Part shown: positions 7,944 to 63,036 of the stretch, piece after piece
Layout: every line of letters starts with the position of its first letter
How positions within the stretch are numbered: the first letter of the stretch is position 1
Assembly: GCA_019235885.1 (NCBI GenBank)
Contig: JAFAKB010000025.1
Span: 62,001-126,000, forward strand
DNA length: 64,000 nt
Direction of reading: 5' to 3'
Origin: Candidatus Eremiobacterota bacterium
GTDB lineage: Bacteria > Vulcanimicrobiota > Vulcanimicrobiia > Vulcanimicrobiales > Vulcanimicrobiaceae
Translations under genes and position numbers: made by a program
Notes under the pieces: model-generated
Seen by the model: the letters and a program-made list of their open reading frames with translations, nothing else
Told to the model about the DNA's origin: nothing
The model's database searches: none

Positions 7944-8531
7944 TTACCGCCAGACCGCGGCGAGCGGAACGCTCGTGATCGTGCCGCTCGGCTCTCCGGC
8001 ACGGTTGTCGACGTCGTACACCGCCAGGCCCGCGTGCCAGACGCGGCCCGGCGTGATGCTGCCGGCGATCAATCCGGTCGACTGCCCGCGGTTCCGGCGC
8101 TCGCGCGACTCGCTGCACTCGTACAGGATCGTGCGGCCGTTCAGCTGCGCGTGCGTCCCGGTGAGCGGGATGCAGACGTTCCCGTCGGTGAGCTCGACCA
8201 GCCACGGCTGCGGTGCGCCCTGGAACACCGGTTCCTGCGGCAGCGGCTTGGTGAGCCGAATCGCGAAGCCCCGCCGGTTCGACGCCGGATCGACGTCGCA
8301 CACCGCGACGCTGCCCTGCGGCGGCACGAAGCACGGATCGTAGATGCTGTTGCGGACCATGCAGCGGTAAGCGTCGGAACGGTTCGGAGCGGCGATGGAA
8401 CGCGTCCAGCACGTGCCCGTGACCGCTCGTCCGGCCGGCACGACGGGAACGTACGTCGTCACGCGCGTCGGCCGAACGGGGCCGGCGCTCGCGAACGCGA
8501 CGAGCGCGACGGCGAGCAGCAGCTGCATCAT
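7944..8531 (-). CDS. Secreted protein of unknown function
   Basis: I do not recognise this 195-residue protein. It starts [17 protein letters not shown], a signal peptide, so the mature part is exported. The mature region has several cysteines (CWTRS, YRCMVRN, DPCFVP, AVCDVD, GNVCIPL, YECSES) that could form disulfides, and a repeated pattern of short beta-like segments. Its ATG overlaps the selB stop by 4 bases, making it the distal gene of the trx-selA-selB operon, although nothing in it suggests a role in selenium metabolism. No in-frame selenocysteine codon is evident. Confidence 0.7.
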   Translation of the reverse strand: MMQLLLAVALVAFASAGPVRPTRVTTYVPVVPAGRAVTGTCWTRSIAAPNRSDAYRCMVRNSIYDPCFVPPQGSVAVCDVDPASNRRGFAIRLTKPLPQEPVFQGAPQPWLVELTDGNVCIPLTGTHAQLNGRTILYECSESRERRNRGQSTGLIAGSITPGRVWHAGLAVYDVDNRAGEPSGTITSVPLAAVWR

Positions 8532-40832: not shown

Positions 40833-41123
40833 ATGCCGCGCAGGGTTCGTCCGCCGAAACCGGACCCGAAAGCCGGCGCGGACGCGCTGATGGAGTGGTA
40901 CGTCAAGCAGCGCATGGAGCCCGACCCGCGCAGCGACGCGGACGTCGAGCGCTCGTGCACCTCGAAGCAGCAGTACGCCAGCGAAGCCGACGCGCACGCG
41001 CACGCGCTGATGAACGGCATGGGCGACGTGCTCTTTTCCTACGAGTGCCGCTACTGCGGCTTCTGGCACCTCACGCGCCGGCCTCCCCCTTCCGCGGGGA
41101 AGGCGTCCCCGGGCCAGAAATGA
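40833..41123 (+). CDS. Small Cys/His zinc-binding protein
   Basis: 96 residues. Cys42 in RSCTSKQQYAS and the later ECRYCGFWHLT give a Cys...Cys-x-x-Cys...His pattern that resembles a short family found in actinobacteria and phages, where a first CxxK/F helix is followed by YxCxxCGxWHLT. Basic N-terminus. Function unknown. It is the last GC-rich gene before a lower-GC cassette. Confidence 0.65.
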   Translation: MPRRVRPPKPDPKAGADALMEWYVKQRMEPDPRSDADVERSCTSKQQYASEADAHAHALMNGMGDVLFSYECRYCGFWHLTRRPPPSAGKASPGQK

Positions 41124-41232
41124 GCTTTGCAGACGCTCGCGTGCCATACAGGTGGCACTCTCCCGGTGCATTCTGTTTGCACGTCGCGTTGAAGGTCCTA
41201 AGCCAAGATCGGCACCGAAAAGGGGAGAACGT

Positions 41233-42225
41233 ATGCCCGAGCCTCGAGACGCCGCACTGATTCTGCACTACCCCTGTTTCGACGGATTGGTCTCCGCGGC
41301 TGTCGCATGGGACGTTCTCGAGACGGAACGAGGGTGGAGCCCAAGTCGTCTGCAGTTCGTAAACTATGATCTTCAGTCGACGTGGCTGGATACGAGTCTT
41401 CCGCAAGATTCCGCTGTCGTCGACTTCCTCTTCCATCCCGACGCGGCGTTTTGGGCCGACCATCACGGCACGTCATTTCTCACTGACGCGTCGCACCTCC
41501 AATTCGAGGACCTTCGCGGCACACGCCCCCTGCTCTATGACCGAAACAGCCCCTCATGCGCAATGCTCATCTGGAAACACTACGCGGAACGATCGTCCGA
41601 TCAGAACCGCTACGGTGAAATGGCATATTGGGCGAACAAGATCGACTCGGCGACCTACGACACAGTTGATGAAGCCGTGTTCGGGACCAGCCCGGCGATG
41701 CAGATCAACTCGACATTCGCAATTGACCGTAGCACTGACTACGGAACGTTCCTTCTTCAAGCCATGCGCGGCATGACCCTCGCTGATATCGCGTCACTTC
41801 CCGAGGTCGGTTCGAAGGTTGCACTGGCACGCGACCAAATTGAACGGGGCCTGCGCGACGTAGAACATTCGATTCATCTAGAGCACGAAGACATCGCCGT
41901 CTTTGCGGGCAAGCCGTCTCCCGGCGCGGTTATCAATCGCTACAGTCCATACTACTTCTACCCGTCGGCGCGTTACTCGGTTTCGCTCATCATGAATGAT
42001 CGCGACGCAAAGATCACCGCGATGCGAAACCCCTGGCTAGACTTCCAAAGTGTCGATCTCGGAAACATCTTTCGCAAGCATGGGGGCGGCGGGCACACGA
42101 GAGTTGCCTCTGCGCTGATCGATACTAACCCTGCCGTAACGGGGCCGGCAATCTTGCATAATATTGTGGAAGAGATTTGTGCGGCTGACCGTCGTGCGAC
42201 CAATCCGGCGATAGCAACCGCATGA
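41233..42225 (+). CDS. DHH/DHHA1-family phosphoesterase
   Basis: 330 residues. Motif I is the HYPCFDG variant of HxDxDG; motif II VVDFLFHP; motif III is ADHHGT; a later Asp in ANKIDSATYD; and the C-terminal DHHA1 block is HGGGGHTRVA. The catalytic residues look complete. DHH/DHHA1 enzymes cleave short oligonucleotides, pAp, or cyclic and linear dinucleotides. The start ATG is preceded by AGGGGAGAA. Codons are clearly poorer in G+C than flanking genes, a sign of transfer. It is coupled (ATGA) to a multi-pass membrane protein, so a nucleotide-signalling or defence cassette is plausible. Confidence 0.8.
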   Translation: MPEPRDAALILHYPCFDGLVSAAVAWDVLETERGWSPSRLQFVNYDLQSTWLDTSLPQDSAVVDFLFHPDAAFWADHHGTSFLTDASHLQFEDLRGTRPLLYDRNSPSCAMLIWKHYAERSSDQNRYGEMAYWANKIDSATYDTVDEAVFGTSPAMQINSTFAIDRSTDYGTFLLQAMRGMTLADIASLPEVGSKVALARDQIERGLRDVEHSIHLEHEDIAVFAGKPSPGAVINRYSPYYFYPSARYSVSLIMNDRDAKITAMRNPWLDFQSVDLGNIFRKHGGGGHTRVASALIDTNPAVTGPAILHNIVEEICAADRRATNPAIATA

Positions 42226-43088
42226 TCGAACGGTTTAACTTCTACGATGTCTACGGTTATCTGATCCCTGGATTGACGCTCGTCATTCTGTTATGGTTAC
42301 CGGTCGGAATCATCACTGGAAAACTTCCGGACGACAAGGCTGCATCGCTGGCGGTGGTTCTTGTGATCGCGTATATCATTGGACTGCACCTCCACTCAAT
42401 GGCGACGAACGCATACCCTTCGCGAACGATGAAGGGCAGCGACGGCAACCCGCAATATCCTAGTGTCGGGCTGCTTGACGAGAAGTCGGAAATCGGGACG
42501 GACCTTAAGAGACGCCTTCAAAAAAACGTGGAGTCATGGTTCGGCATCGACATTGCCGCCGGCAAGGACGCCAACACCCTCATCGCGCAACGTCGCCAGG
42601 ACGCTTACAATCTCTGCCGTCCGATCGTCACGGCTCAGAAGTCGTATGCCGAGCAGTTCCAAGGTCTGTACGCACTGGCACGCGGGATGTCCGTCTCATG
42701 CGCGCTCGCAGCACCATATTACTTAGGCTGGGCAGCTTGGGTATGGAAGCGCAAAGATCTCGGCGACGCAGCGCTCGTCATCATCGCTGCCTATGCGGCC
42801 ATTGCGCTTTGCGTCGCGGTTGCCGTTGCACTCGGCAAGGGCGATCGACTGCAGAACGATCAATTGGGGTTGTTCGTTGTCGCCATCTTGCTGCTAGGCA
42901 GCGGCTATCTCGTCGGATCACGCTTTACGGTCTCCTCCGAGACGAGCGAGATTCTTATAATCGGCGCAATCGTTTTGATCGCTGTCTCCGTCCGCTTCTT
43001 TGCTTTGTACAAGTACTTCACCGTGGCGCATGCGCGGACGCTCTGGAGTGAATTTGCGAGCAATTCGCCGGAGCGGCCGAGACCTTAG
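42222..43088 (+). CDS. Multi-pass membrane protein paired with DHH phosphoesterase
   Basis: 288 residues with two groups of membrane helices: two near the N-terminus (YGYLIPGLTLVILLWLPVGI, SLAVVLVIAYIIGLHL) and four or five after residue 150 (ALARGMSVSCALAAPYYLGW, ALVIIAAYAAIALCVAVAVAL, LGLFVVAILLLGSGYLVG, EILIIGAIVLIAVSVRFF). Between them is a soluble loop of about 80 residues with polar helices. Not a family I can name. The N-terminal FNFYDVYGYLIPG pattern recalls membrane proteins found in defence islands, but this is an impression. It shares low GC and an ATGA overlap with the DHH gene, suggesting one transferred unit. Confidence 0.75.
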   Translation: MIERFNFYDVYGYLIPGLTLVILLWLPVGIITGKLPDDKAASLAVVLVIAYIIGLHLHSMATNAYPSRTMKGSDGNPQYPSVGLLDEKSEIGTDLKRRLQKNVESWFGIDIAAGKDANTLIAQRRQDAYNLCRPIVTAQKSYAEQFQGLYALARGMSVSCALAAPYYLGWAAWVWKRKDLGDAALVIIAAYAAIALCVAVAVALGKGDRLQNDQLGLFVVAILLLGSGYLVGSRFTVSSETSEILIIGAIVLIAVSVRFFALYKYFTVAHARTLWSEFASNSPERPRP

Positions 43089-43340
43089 CGCGGCTTAATC
43101 GCGGCGACTTTCTCCGTTGTTGGCGGGATCGAAGTTCCAACTGCGGCTTCTGGTACATCACGAGACGGCAAAGGCCGCGGGAAACACGTTGATTTCGCGC
43201 CGACGTCGTAGAGCGGGATCACTTCGTGGTAGCGTTTCGCCTTTCGGTCGTCTTTGGGAGTGTGTTCCGCGCAGAGGCGCTGCTCCCACCCATGCGACGC
43301 ACGCAATGCAGAGCGCCACGCAGACTGCGAAGAGCTTCAC
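43085..43340 (-). pseudogene. Decayed secreted protein, partial duplicate of the adjacent DUF5069 3' end
   Basis: An ATG at 43340 overlaps the DUF5069 stop (ATGA) and opens a signal peptide (MKLFAVCVALCIACVAWVGA). Further on the sequence repeats blocks of the neighbour: 43119-43139 matches 43373-43393 at 18 of 21 bases, and 43208-43229 matches 43457-43478 at 19 of 22. The distance between blocks is 69 bases here versus 64 there, so the EVIPLYD and SWNFDPAN parts fall in different frames, with a TGA between. Frameshifts or decay are the simplest reading; a real short secreted protein of 60 residues (43158-43340) cannot be excluded. Confidence 0.45.
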
Positions 43341-43824
43341 GAGCCCGGTGCCGTCGGTTTTGCTTTCGCGGCGTTGGCGGGGTCGAATATCCAGCGGTCG
43401 TCGAGGTCTAGGATCTCGAACCAGTTGCGCAGGCGCGGGTGCTCGCGCAGGACGGGGTAGCGCGGGAGCACTTCTTGGAAGTGTTGCTCGTCCCGAATGC
43501 CGCGGGCGCTCAGGCGCTCGTTGATCGCAGGATACGTTGATTCGTCGGTGCGCTTGCGGAGCCAGGCGACGACCTCCTCGTCGGTCCGCGCGTGCGCACG
43601 GCTTCGGTGAAGTCGTCTTCGCTCACGCCGAGCCATTCGAGCAGATACCCGGAGAGGCCGGGGGAGACTTTGTAGAGGCCGAGCGCTCCTTGAATCTTCG
43701 CGCGTGCCTTGTCGATCGTGCGCGGCAAGAAGTACAACCCGCCGAGCATCGCCCGCGCGCCGCGCGGCGGATGCGCGCGCAAGTCGGCGTCCGGATACGG
43801 CAGATCGGTCACGCGATCGCTCAT
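43337..43824 (-). pseudogene. DUF5069 protein, interrupted by one frameshift
   Basis: Starts at ATG 43824 (overlapping the gentisate dioxygenase stop, ATGA) with MSDRVTDLPYPDADLRAHPPRG, then GGLYFLPRTIDKARAKIQG, typical of DUF5069. After SEDDFTEAVRTR (about 43600) the frame closes incorrectly, and the rest (TDEEVVAWLRKRTDES...IFDPAN) continues in another frame to 43337. The junction lies in an alternating CGCACGCGCGG stretch. It may be a true mutation, a sequencing indel, or rarely programmed frameshifting; both halves otherwise look well preserved, which favours a recent or technical cause. Confidence 0.75.
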
Positions 43825-44765
43825 GCGGCGGAGGCTTCGTGGCGGTACGCGCCGATCGCTTCGAGCACCGGGCGGTCGTCGTAGCGGAAGAGGTAGGTGT
43901 CCTTCGCCGCTTCGTGGCGGTACGGCATCCAGGACGGAATGCAGAACGTGTCGCCTTTCTCCCACTCGAGCCGCTCTTCGCCGACCTGCGTCAAGCCGCG
44001 GCCTTTGTAGACGTGGTAGATGATTCCGGCGGTCTCGCGGCGCGTCGGCGACGAGCTTCCCTTCGCGATCCGTTCGGCCGCCGCGCCGATCACGCGCGAC
44101 ACCGCGCCGCCGGTGCGCTTGTGCTCGTACTCTGCGCGCACGTACGGTTCGGGCTGCGCTTCGAGCCGCGCTTGCATGTCGGCCCACGGATAGCGCAGGT
44201 GCGTGTCCTCGGGCGCCGGCTCCGCGGGAAAGCGCTCCTCGCCGTACGGCTGCGCGAAGTTCGCCGGAAAGAACTGGTAGACGGGTAGATCGAGGCCGTC
44301 GAGCCACACCATCGGCCCGTCGCCTTCGTGGCCGTGATCGTGGTACTCCCACGACGGCGTGAGGATCAAGTCGCCACGGCGCATCGTGACCTTCTCGCCG
44401 TCGACCGCGGTGTACGCGGCGTCGCCTTCGACGATGAAACGCAGCGCGAACGCGACGTGCCGGTGTGCGCGCGCGACCTCGCCGGGAAGGATCAGCTGCA
44501 GCCCGGCGTAGAGCGTGTCGGTCGTCTGCGGCGGCTTGAGGGCGGGATTGATCAGCTGCAGCACGCGCCGCTCCGCGTCTTTCGCCGAGACCAGATGTCC
44601 CGCGCGCTCGAGCAGCGGGCGCAGCGCGGCATAGCGCCATACGTGCGGGACCGCCTTGGGCTCCGGCCGCGGCGGGACTACGGCGTCCATCATGGTCCAG
44701 AGCGGCCGCACCTCTTGGGCCGCCGCCTCGGCGAACAAGCGGTCGAGAGAGTCCGTCGCGATCAT
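43821..44765 (-). CDS. Gentisate 1,2-dioxygenase
   Basis: Bicupin Fe(II) dioxygenase of 314 residues that opens the gentisate ring to maleylpyruvate. The first cupin has the metal motif AHRHVAFALRFIVEG and WEYHDHGHEGDGPMVWLDGLDLP, both characteristic; the second cupin ends GDTFCIPSWMPYRHEA. The ATG at 44765 has GGAGG 4 bases upstream. Divergent from a fumarylacetoacetate-hydrolase-family gene, 49 bases away, matching the gentisate pathway (dioxygenase, then fumarylpyruvate hydrolase). No maleylpyruvate isomerase is seen in the window. Confidence 0.9.
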   Translation of the reverse strand: MIATDSLDRLFAEAAAQEVRPLWTMMDAVVPPRPEPKAVPHVWRYAALRPLLERAGHLVSAKDAERRVLQLINPALKPPQTTDTLYAGLQLILPGEVARAHRHVAFALRFIVEGDAAYTAVDGEKVTMRRGDLILTPSWEYHDHGHEGDGPMVWLDGLDLPVYQFFPANFAQPYGEERFPAEPAPEDTHLRYPWADMQARLEAQPEPYVRAEYEHKRTGGAVSRVIGAAAERIAKGSSSPTRRETAGIIYHVYKGRGLTQVGEERLEWEKGDTFCIPSWMPYRHEAAKDTYLFRYDDRPVLEAIGAYRHEASAA

Positions 44766-44814
44766 CGGTCCTCCGGGAGGCGGTGTGATTCGTGCCGGTC
44801 GGGAAAGACCCCGC

Positions 44815-45690
44815 ATGCGCTTCGTTGTTTTCAGTACCCCCTCCGCCGGACCGCGACCCGGCATGCTCGACGGCAAGACGATCCGCCCGCTCGACGGCCT
44901 CGCCTCGCTCGACGCGCTGGTCGCGCTCGAGCCCGCCGCGCGCGAAGCTGCCCTGCAGCGGCTCGGCGAGCCGGTTGCGCTGACCGGCGCGTCGCTCCAC
45001 GCGCCGCTGCGCCCGCGCAAGAACGTCTTTTGCGTCGGCCGCAACTACCTTGCGCACGCCGAGGAAGGGGCGCGCGTGCGCGGCGAGGAGCTGAAGCTGC
45101 CGGCCGTCCCGACGTTCTTCTCGAAGGCGCCGACCGCGATCGCCGACCCCGACGCGACGCTGCACCTCGACGGCACCGTCTCGCAGAAGTACGACTGGGA
45201 AGCGGAGCTCGGCGTGGTGATCGGGACGCGCTGCAAGGATGTGCGCGAGGCAGACGCGCTTGGCGTGATCTTCGGCTACACCTGCGTGAACGACGTGAGC
45301 GCGCGCGACGTGCAGAACGCCACGACGCAGTGGTTCAAGGGCAAGACGCTCGACGACACCTGTCCGCTCGGACCGTGGCTCGTCAGCGCCGACGAGATCG
45401 CCGACCCGCAGCGGCTGGACGTCTCGCTGCGCGTCAACGGCGAGACGAAGCAGCACGCCTCGACGGCGGTGATGATCTTTCCGATCGCGCGCATCATCGC
45501 GGAGCTCTCGAAGGGGCTCACGCTCGAGCCCGGCGACGTGATCGCGACCGGAACGCCCGAAGGCGTGGGCTTCGCGCGCAACCCGCCCGAGTTCTTGAAA
45601 GACGGCGACGTGGTCGAAGTCGAGGTCTCGCAGGTCGGCGTGCTACGCAATCGCGTCGCGATCAGCGTCCCGGTCGGCGCCGCTACCTGA
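44815..45690 (+). CDS. Fumarylacetoacetate-hydrolase-family protein, probably fumarylpyruvate hydrolase
   Basis: 291 residues of the FAH fold. Core motifs NVFCVGRNYLAHAEE, PTFFSKAPTAI, YDWEAELGVVIG (metal-binding Glu residues), VNDVSARDVQ and GDVIATGTPEGVG are complete. Next to gentisate dioxygenase, the likely reaction is hydrolysis of fumarylpyruvate (or maleylpyruvate directly) to fumarate or malate and pyruvate. The start ATG at 44815 follows GGGAAAG. The shared 49-base gap probably carries a divergent promoter and a regulator site. Other FAH reactions remain possible. Confidence 0.88.
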   Translation: MRFVVFSTPSAGPRPGMLDGKTIRPLDGLASLDALVALEPAAREAALQRLGEPVALTGASLHAPLRPRKNVFCVGRNYLAHAEEGARVRGEELKLPAVPTFFSKAPTAIADPDATLHLDGTVSQKYDWEAELGVVIGTRCKDVREADALGVIFGYTCVNDVSARDVQNATTQWFKGKTLDDTCPLGPWLVSADEIADPQRLDVSLRVNGETKQHASTAVMIFPIARIIAELSKGLTLEPGDVIATGTPEGVGFARNPPEFLKDGDVVEVEVSQVGVLRNRVAISVPVGAAT

Positions 45691-61049: not shown

Positions 61050-62009
61050 TTGCCGTATTTCACTGAACCTGGCCGCAGTGGGACCTCGACGGCCCCGTTC
61101 GTCCTCGACGAGCAGCGGCTCCTCAAATTCCGGGACATCTTTGAGGCATCCGGAAGGGCGCTCGGGACTCCATTTGTGATCCGGTATTCCATCCGGCGGC
61201 GAGATCGGTTCGTTTACAGCACTGACGATAACCGCGAAGTCATCGGGGACGAAAACGTGAAGGGGCGCGAGATCGAAGAGCTTGCGCTCGAGTTAGTTGC
61301 AAGGGAACCGGCCAGCGGCACGGTCGCTCAAACTGCACTCGAACCGTATCCGGCAGAACGAGGACCCCGGGGTGACGTCGTTGCATCAGTCACGTTTCTC
61401 ATCGCGAACTATCGCATCGAGTCGCGCAGCTGCGTTGAGTACATCGTCGAGTGTCCAAATCGGCTCTGGTGCGCGGATCTAGTCGCAGAGATCAAGAACC
61501 AGTTGACCCGCATCGAGGCGCCTCACCGCACTCCCGTGCCACCTTGGCTCGGCACCGTAATAGGCTTCGCCGCGTTCGTCTTGCTGATCGTCGCATTCTA
61601 TACGTTCTTGTTGGCACCAGTAAATATTTCCCCCGCCGATGAACCGACGTTTGGAAAGCTCAGCGTTTCCGACAAGCTAACGAACGTATACACGTTCCAG
61701 CGGCTCCTGTTCTCTCGCAGCAGCCGGTATGAAGCATTTTATTTTTTTACGATCGTCCTAGCAGCGATTTCGATTTTGTGCCATAGCACAAAGCCACTTA
61801 CTCGACTCAGCGCGACGATGCAGCGCTCGTACTTCCTTTGGGGAGATCAGATTGACGTGTACCGGCGACATGAGTCTCGCGTCTTTCAGAAGGTCCGAGG
61901 CGCGGCGGCCGCGGTCGCGGGTGTCGCAATCGCTGTCGTCGCCGCATTTATTGCGGCACCGTTCGTCGACAACGTCCGCGATTTTGTCAAGTCGATTCGG
62001 CTTCCGTGA
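61050..62009 (+). CDS. Membrane protein of unknown function
   Basis: 319 residues from TTG (or a nearby codon). The N-terminal half is soluble and cytoplasmic-looking (FRDIFEASGRALGTPFVIRYS, VVASVTFLIANYR), then three hydrophobic segments: LGTVIGFAAFVLLIVAFYTFLL, AFYFFTIVLAAISILC, and near the end AAAVAGVAIAVVAAFIAAPF. G+C is clearly lower than in the flanking lysine operon. Convergent with the next gene, 23-base overlap. Not recognised; the mixed soluble and membrane plan could suit a sensor or effector. Confidence 0.65.
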   Translation: MPYFTEPGRSGTSTAPFVLDEQRLLKFRDIFEASGRALGTPFVIRYSIRRRDRFVYSTDDNREVIGDENVKGREIEELALELVAREPASGTVAQTALEPYPAERGPRGDVVASVTFLIANYRIESRSCVEYIVECPNRLWCADLVAEIKNQLTRIEAPHRTPVPPWLGTVIGFAAFVLLIVAFYTFLLAPVNISPADEPTFGKLSVSDKLTNVYTFQRLLFSRSSRYEAFYFFTIVLAAISILCHSTKPLTRLSATMQRSYFLWGDQIDVYRRHESRVFQKVRGAAAAVAGVAIAVVAAFIAAPFVDNVRDFVKSIRLP

Positions 62010-63036
62010 CGGTCGCCGTTAAAGGTACATCGGGCGGCGGCGACCTCAAGGGAGGTACCTCGATCAGCGGCTCTGGTGGGAACTCAAAGGCCTCATGGCG
62101 CCAGCCGAGCCGAAAACCCATGCAGTACGCGCCGATGAGCTCGAGAGCCCGCGCTTTTTGCGCGTGCATCATCGCCGATAGTCCGTTGGACGCCAAGAGC
62201 TCGGCTTGGAAGGCTTCGTCTGCTCGCCGTTGGGCCACAATCTCGGTATTGCGAGCCAATTCAAGGGGCGTGCGCGCGCGAAGCTGTGTCGCCAACAGCG
62301 CCGAAACGAAGATCACCAGGAATGGTACGCCGAACGCCGCTATCACGCTCATGCCCTTTGATGCGTCGAATGAGCGCAAGGAAACGAGATACTCGAAGCG
62401 AGCCCCTCCGATGACGACGCAGTAGACAATCGCAGCCACCATGGTCGCGACAGTAATCTCACGTTGGCGCAAAAGGAGCGCCTGTCCTAGAAAGTGACCG
62501 ATGATGACGCCGAACGACCCGAGCACCATCGCTAGCGGAGCGAGGACGAGCGTCGGCAGCCGCCAGAACTCTAGCGTGAAGTAACTGAAACCAACGTAAA
62601 AGGCACCGATGAACGACTGCGCAGCGTAATACGCTGTTGCGGACATGAACTGGCCGAACGCGCGCTCCGGAATCGCGTTGGAGCTCCTTCGCGCCAATTC
62701 ATGTTGGTACTCGTCGACGGCAGCATGTGCTTTGCGCGTCGCATCGCGAAGGCGGACGAGCCGAGTCGCGGAGCGGCGCTGATAGTCCGAAATCGCTAGT
62801 TGAAACCGCACTTCGGTCCGGTGGGCGAGCGCGACCATCCTTGCCTCAACGAGCGCGCTCGCAGCCTTGACCGAGCGGTGGCGGCTGAAGTAGTACCCGT
62901 CGATAAAGCCGAGGAGCTGCTCGCAAGCGGTCCGTACACTGTGCCGGAATGCAGGCAGCATGAAAAAGAATGTTACCAGGAGGATCACTGCGGCCGGCGC
63001 GGTCCAACCCATTGATTCAATCAACGGAGCGGACAT
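61987..63036 (-). CDS. Membrane protein with helical cytoplasmic region, unknown
   Basis: 349 residues. Hydrophobic segments near the N-terminus (AAVILLVTFFFMLPAF) and in the middle (QSFIGAFYVGFSYFTLEF, LVLAPLAMVLGSFGVIIGHFLG, ATMVAAIVYCVVIGGARF, VIAAFGVPFLVIFVSALLA). Residues 70-150 are strongly helical and charged (RTEVRFQLAISDYQRRSATRLVRLRDATRKAH), likely a coiled coil. The C-terminus is Pro-rich. Overlaps the next upstream gene by 16 bases. Lower GC. Function unknown. Confidence 0.65.
   Translation of the reverse strand: MSAPLIESMGWTAPAAVILLVTFFFMLPAFRHSVRTACEQLLGFIDGYYFSRHRSVKAASALVEARMVALAHRTEVRFQLAISDYQRRSATRLVRLRDATRKAHAAVDEYQHELARRSSNAIPERAFGQFMSATAYYAAQSFIGAFYVGFSYFTLEFWRLPTLVLAPLAMVLGSFGVIIGHFLGQALLLRQREITVATMVAAIVYCVVIGGARFEYLVSLRSFDASKGMSVIAAFGVPFLVIFVSALLATQLRARTPLELARNTEIVAQRRADEAFQAELLASNGLSAMMHAQKARALELIGAYCMGFRLGWRHEAFEFPPEPLIEVPPLRSPPPDVPLTATVTEAEST

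Follow-up and report, generated by a model that had tools for sequence, protein, structure and literature searches.

What joint task could unite a soluble DHH phosphoesterase and a multi-pass membrane protein, whose genes form a compact unit of unusually low GC content in the genome of a Candidatus Eremiobacterota bacterium? We addressed this question from a window of 64,000 nucleotides, by which we mean the whole stretch of DNA analysed. The two open reading frames of the preliminary description are confirmed, with four nucleotides shared in an ATGA overlap (Table 1). An alternative start of the DHH gene is the GTG at 41152; the ATG at 41233 has the Shine-Dalgarno-like AAGGGGAG five bases 5' of it. 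A promoter scan found no sigma-70-like site. As had been noticed, the cassette is markedly poorer in GC than both of its sides: it has 56.7% GC against 69.3% for the window, the lowest value for any stretch of that length, and only 0.3% of 1,856-nt windows are as low. The GC3 of the two genes is 0.63-0.67, against ~0.9 in most neighbouring genes. A second lower-GC stretch lies at 61050-63036 (GC 0.57-0.60, GC3 0.66-0.71); its two ORFs (319 and 349 aa) are convergent, each is predicted to have membrane helices, and neither is matched by Pfam or PADLOC.

Table 1 Features of the cassette and its insertion site, in positions of the window.
Feature	Position	Strand	Basis
3' end of upstream 96-aa gene; left copy of 30-nt direct repeat	41053..41082	+	
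Inserted segment missing from the same site in genus relatives	41084..43353	.	blastn against ten same-genus genomes
Ribosome-binding-like AAGGGGAG, 5 nt before ATG 41233	41220..41227	+	sequence
DHH/DHHA1 phosphoesterase gene, 330 aa	41233..42225	+	ORF call, AlphaFold2 model, PggH structural match
Motif I H12-YPCF-D17, Cys15 for the Asp of PggH-type relatives	41266..41283	+	invariant in close paired clade
Motif II Asp64	41422..41424	+	invariant
Motif III DHH (76-78)	41458..41466	+	invariant
Motif IV Asp138	41644..41646	+	invariant
MRNPW motif	42022..42036	+	invariant in 18 close clade members
GGGGH of DHHA1 domain	42082..42096	+	alignment
Csx27-superfamily membrane protein gene (by sequence), 288 aa, six predicted membrane helices	42222..43088	+	PADLOC profile, AlphaFold2 model
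N-terminal signature NFYDVYGYLIPG, start of helix 1	42237..42272	+	near-invariant in membrane-protein alignment; Csx27 profile match begins here
Probable cytosolic domain, aa 64-152, candidate ligand site	42411..42677	+	alignment, AlphaFold2
Helices 3-6 and C-terminal helix	42678..43085	+	alignment, AlphaFold2
Diverged 3'-end copies of the two flanking genes, within the insert's right end	43119..43169	+	

The DHH-membrane pair is an insert of ~2.3 kb, since same-genus genomes hold both flanking genes adjacent to each other with nothing comparable between them. These flanks are a 96-aa gene upstream (40833-41123) and a dioxygenase-like gene downstream (~43824-44903, minus strand). Each of the other ten genomes of the genus has both, and in seven (G001, G002, G003, G004, G007, G009 and G010) they are directly adjacent. 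In blastn comparisons with the ten genomes, homology with the window ends at 41083 and resumes at ~43350-43371, the downstream alignment being shorter in G002 and G003 than in the others; ~25-190 bp of non-homologous sequence occupies the slot in genomes without other inserts. The cassette is in this sense the isolated two-gene unit that had been supposed, with homology breaking at its edges. One of the ten genomes (G005) carries a cassette of its own, on a different contig from the flanking-gene site.

The slot may be an insertion hotspot, because it carries other sequence in two relatives: an RraB-like ORF with a 325-aa lower-GC ORF in G006 (L122, 658-2154), and a low-GC stretch of ~1 kb in G008 (L123, ~1900-2980). 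At the right end of the insert, 43119-43139 matches 43373-43393 (86%) and 43140-43169 matches 41053-41082 (87%). No recombinase gene is seen in the insert. Insertion has probably occurred repeatedly at this one site, by what would be homologous recombination.

Close homologues of either protein occur in three of 98 relatives (the window's genome G000, G005 and G021), each of which has both genes, side by side in the same order. A scan of genome contigs with a single sequence gave no matches, and a profile of the three DHH proteins was used instead, which found 16 further loci in GTDB genomes. The membrane gene lies directly downstream in 13 of these 16 loci (12 intact and one, L036, frameshifted). 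At L041 the membrane gene is truncated after ~20 codons (7951-8070) beside an intact DHH gene; at L043 the contig ends ~100 nt past the DHH gene; and at L044, a distant sister, a different, unrelated two-helix membrane protein takes the partner's position. The 13 paired loci belong to Vulcanimicrobiota (titled Eremiobacterota), Acidobacteriota, Tectomicrobia, a deltaproteobacterium placed in Myxococcota, and Rokubacteria. The pair is thus known from at least five phyla, and its flanks vary across lineages, with the exception of the near relatives L029 and L030.

Starting from the membrane protein leads to the same picture. Beyond the search centres, three genomes have a full-length match (G370, G569 and G594) among 396 from Acidobacteriota, 95 from the phylum of Rokubacteria and 247 from that of the deltaproteobacterium, and in all three it follows a DHH gene; with G005 and G021, this amounts to five out of five. 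The pair counts are lower bounds, as the larger searches scored few candidates per genome. The co-occurrence called for by the preliminary description is therefore found from both sides: the DHH and Csx27-like genes recur as one compact cassette across several phyla. They overlap by 4 nt in most lineages, with a spacing of -17 to +12 nt in the rest.

The two proteins also diverge in step. Pairwise distances of the DHH and membrane proteins correlate with r 0.79 over 15 pairs, a value that partly reflects shared ancestry and that none of 5000 permutations reaches. Both genes are under purifying selection, given the dN/dS of ~0.14 (DHH) and ~0.27 (membrane) between L029 and L030. The viral contigs searched gave no relative of either protein, and the matches in plasmids and phages are all generic DHH proteins at a distance; the pair as such turned up on neither viruses nor plasmids. 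An intact DHH gene stands beside a broken membrane gene at two loci (L036 and L041, both MAG-derived and one a possible assembly error), and the reverse is seen at none.

The preliminary description had read the first gene as a DHH/DHHA1 enzyme, and all the motifs it named (HYPCFDG, ADHHGT and HGGGGHT) are present. Its AlphaFold2 model is confident (pLDDT 94.7). PggH of Vibrio cholerae, a phosphodiesterase specific for pGpG, is the nearest solved relative both by sequence (E 1.6e-15) and by structure (7d62, Z 25.0, rmsd 2.9 over 282 residues), with the next row at Z 19.2. The confident model and this match place the protein in the DHH/DHHA1 superfamily. RecJ, pAp phosphatase, NrnA and GdpP follow at Z 13-19. 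The cassette enzyme shares with PggH the fold, over nearly the whole length, and the catalytic motifs; it differs in its sequence (~20% identity), in the Cys15 of motif I, in the MRNPW motif and in having a conserved membrane partner.

Residues D64, D76-H77-H78, D138 and GGGGH are invariant in 18 close clade members. In motif I, the close paired clade shares Cys15-Phe-Asp17 with a solo Acidobacteriota family, and L044 and PggH-type relatives have Asp at the position of Cys15. The alignment suggests an enzyme that is likely, although not certainly, active: its catalytic residues are invariant, yet a Cys replaces the first Asp of motif I. The resemblance to PggH suggests short nucleotides as substrates.

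In the tree, the paired DHH proteins group together in a single clade (19 members; support 100/98), separate from the solo single-copy Acidobacteriota family and from generic DHH proteins; L043 and L044 sit on long branches, and their exact placement is unsure. Two groups were set apart as separate clades, and no Csx27-like neighbour was seen in those of their loci that were read: the phylum's generic DHH proteins, of MRLVTRSDFDGL type, and the solo Acidobacteriota family, of LYHGxCFDG type. Solo DHH proteins with an LYHGxCFDG-like motif I (L058-L084) occur in about a quarter of the 396 Acidobacteriota genomes. In the Chloroflexota locus L044 (6920-8778), the gene for the unrelated two-helix membrane protein (278 aa, matched by neither Pfam nor PADLOC) begins 2 nt after the distant DHH gene; further homologues of this DHH protein were not found in 250 other genomes of Chloroflexota.

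Csx27 is an accessory protein of type VI-B CRISPR (Cas13b), and the paper on its family is said to link it to ubiquitin-like operons. The PADLOC Csx27 model matches all 16 membrane proteins of the cassettes (best 1.2e-9), ten of which also match the Csx27-related model tm_4. In the window protein, residues 3-201 align to 2-184 of the 206 positions of the Csx27 profile; the NFYDxYGYxxPG region, helices 1-4 and the cytosolic domain fall within the match, and helices 5-6 lie beyond it. The NCBIfam CAS_Csx27 equivalog scores 13 bits against a cut-off of 65. As this is below threshold, we assign the protein by its sequence to the Csx27 superfamily and not to Csx27 proper. Cassette proteins also differ from the superfamily in length (272-338 aa with two extra C-terminal helices, versus 228 aa in L092) and in their partner, the DHH enzyme. 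At the window's locus linked cas13b is absent, the insert holding only the two genes.

AlphaFold2 predicts two plus four membrane helices around a cytosolic domain, in line with the two plus four or five first proposed. Within this probable domain, S81, R125, R133, Y142 and Q145 are invariant; all but the first are candidate ligand contacts. No Pfam family, transporters included, reaches its cut-off for the membrane protein, and no solved fold matches its model convincingly (best Foldseek E 0.42; best VIA Z 6.1 over 92 residues), although the fold need not be new for that. Membership of a known transporter family, which would have spoken against the original reading, is not suggested by either comparison; by its sequence the protein falls in the Csx27 superfamily. 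As a cross-check, the membrane-protein profile further retrieved from G594 a protein of 228 aa (E 2.9e-15), which in its turn matches Csx27 (9.7e-9). There, at L092 (5331-11448), the Csx27-type gene comes after those of an E2/ThiF/JAB protein and a weakly MBL-type-defence-like protein, and adjoins an AbiLi-like ATPase and a DUF3226 protein; the same genome holds a DHH-membrane cassette.

A close precedent for such a pair comes from type III-B CRISPR, where NrN, a DHH-family phosphodiesterase, degrades SAM-AMP, the ligand of the membrane effector CorA (PMC10600005). CorA alone is toxic, its toxicity is lowered by NrN, and the NrN active site is required for immunity (PMC10600005; PMC12255297). 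The cassette likewise has a DHH-family phosphodiesterase gene beside that of a would-be membrane effector. PggH, the closest structural relative of the cassette enzyme, is reported among the closest structural relatives of NrN too (PMC10600005). Contrary to CorA-NrN, the partner is Csx27-like, with no CorA Pfam match in any of the membrane proteins, and the window's genome gave no hit to the Cas10 palm domain; the removal of the effector's ligand, established for NrN, is a predicted role for the cassette enzyme. A second parallel is Csx28, another membrane accessory of Cas13b, a pore that depolarises the inner membrane (PMC12669027). The small system Panoptes (PMC12657218) also controls a membrane effector by a nucleotide signal; it encodes a synthase, whereas the cassette enzyme is a predicted hydrolase. 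In the literature searched, which is thin on subscription journals, no description of a DHH and Csx27-like pair was found.

The best reading is probably that of a module parallel to CorA-NrN (SAM-AMP), but free of CRISPR. The cassette could well be a self-contained membrane effector with an eraser of its nucleotide ligand, a proposal that we make tentatively; the CorA-NrN parallel and the Csx28 pore are what lead us to favour a ligand-gated effector with its own eraser. The membrane protein would form a channel or pore, gated open by the binding of a small nucleotide to its cytosolic domain. This ligand may be a linear dinucleotide or a nucleotide conjugate, coming from the stressed host or from an infecting phage. 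By hydrolysing the ligand, the DHH enzyme would hold the channel closed as long as the cell is healthy, and reset it thereafter. Should the ligand outrun the enzyme, or the enzyme be inhibited, the membrane would be depolarised and growth would stop. The likeliest setting would be anti-phage defence or abortive infection, the least supported step of the scheme.

Several observations favour an effector with its eraser: the tight co-occurrence, the correlated divergence, the single DHH clade, the Csx27 match, the PggH likeness and the CorA-NrN precedent. The membrane protein may be the costly part of the pair, as intact DHH genes persist beside broken membrane genes and never the reverse. Against it stand the motif I Cys in place of Asp, the lack of a synthase linked or common to the cassette genomes, and the lack of defence genes beside the window's cassette and of viral or plasmid copies in our searches. 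The pore role is itself suggested by family resemblance, and Csx27 channel activity is a prediction in the literature consulted.

The genomic context bears on the immune setting. PADLOC gave no convincing defence-gene match on the immediate window neighbours tested, and the placement beside defence genes envisaged at the outset is not seen there; cassette flanks outside the window, read by eye, look like housekeeping genes. The Cas10 palm domain exceeds its cut-off in three of 20 cassette genomes, the window's genome not among them, and a CD-NTase occurs in two of the 20. As neither is common to cassette genomes, we rejected an accessory of type III CRISPR or CBASS as a general explanation. 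In the window's genome, a CD-NTase (SMODS domain, E 1.5e-20) lies on another contig (L097, G000:C29:23936-24424), in a possible CBASS locus. The eraser and membrane effector of the preliminary description are supported in good part though not throughout: the strict co-occurrence, the lack of a convincing transporter match and the CorA-NrN precedent speak for them, and the lack of a Cas10 or CD-NTase common to cassette genomes speaks against. That the pair forms an immune or stress module free of both CRISPR and synthase, its Csx27-family channel gated by a host or phage nucleotide that the DHH enzyme continuously erases, so that enzyme inhibition or a flood of ligand would collapse the membrane, is possible but doubtful.

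The lack of a synthase would also fit a regulator that needs none. GdpP, a c-di-AMP phosphodiesterase, carries membrane helices and a DHH/DHHA1 domain fused in one protein, and it appears with other pApA and pGpG enzymes among the structural matches; the cassette might be its split equivalent, the membrane protein sensing or anchoring and controlling the DHH enzyme, and the pair tuning c-di-GMP (via pGpG) or c-di-AMP (via pApA) with no toxic effector. GdpP is however a single polypeptide with PAS and GGDEF domains, whereas the cassette has two genes and a Csx27-related membrane part devoid of both; the patchy, horizontally moved distribution (3/98 relatives) is also a poor fit to housekeeping signalling. 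We regard this explanation as unlikely.

The Csx27 relationship points to another use of the pair, in nucleic-acid uptake and degradation. PMC7642515, citing Makarova et al. 2019, describes the family as predicted ssDNA channels, found with natural-transformation genes and reported near CRISPR or DNA-uptake genes. The membrane protein would then be an ssDNA channel and the DHH protein an exonuclease acting on the incoming strand, as RecJ has the DHH fold too (bacterial and archaeal RecJ match at Z 14-17). But the compact 330-aa enzyme is nearest to PggH, a dinucleotide enzyme, and does without the extra domains of bacterial RecJ, and no competence genes were noticed among the cassette-flanking ORFs read by eye, which makes this quite improbable. 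Finally, a direct-contact toxin-antitoxin, with the DHH protein binding and restraining a membrane toxin and its catalysis dispensable, would suit two overlapping, antitoxin-first genes of correlated divergence and intact DHH genes kept beside broken partners, but it is likewise improbable, as a pure binding role would not need catalytic motifs that stay invariant in a clade diverged to ~40% identity.

The Csx27 superfamily occurs in the settings of Cas13b, bacterial ubiquitin-like operons and competence genes. The cassette reduces the problem of how this superfamily acts to two genes, one of them for an enzyme partner. A CRISPR-free gated module, if true, would give the superfamily a ligand-gated role. 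If the enzyme erases the ligand of the channel, its substrate would name the signal that gates the Csx27 superfamily, and the design of eraser and effector known from CorA-NrN would have arisen, or spread, outside CRISPR.
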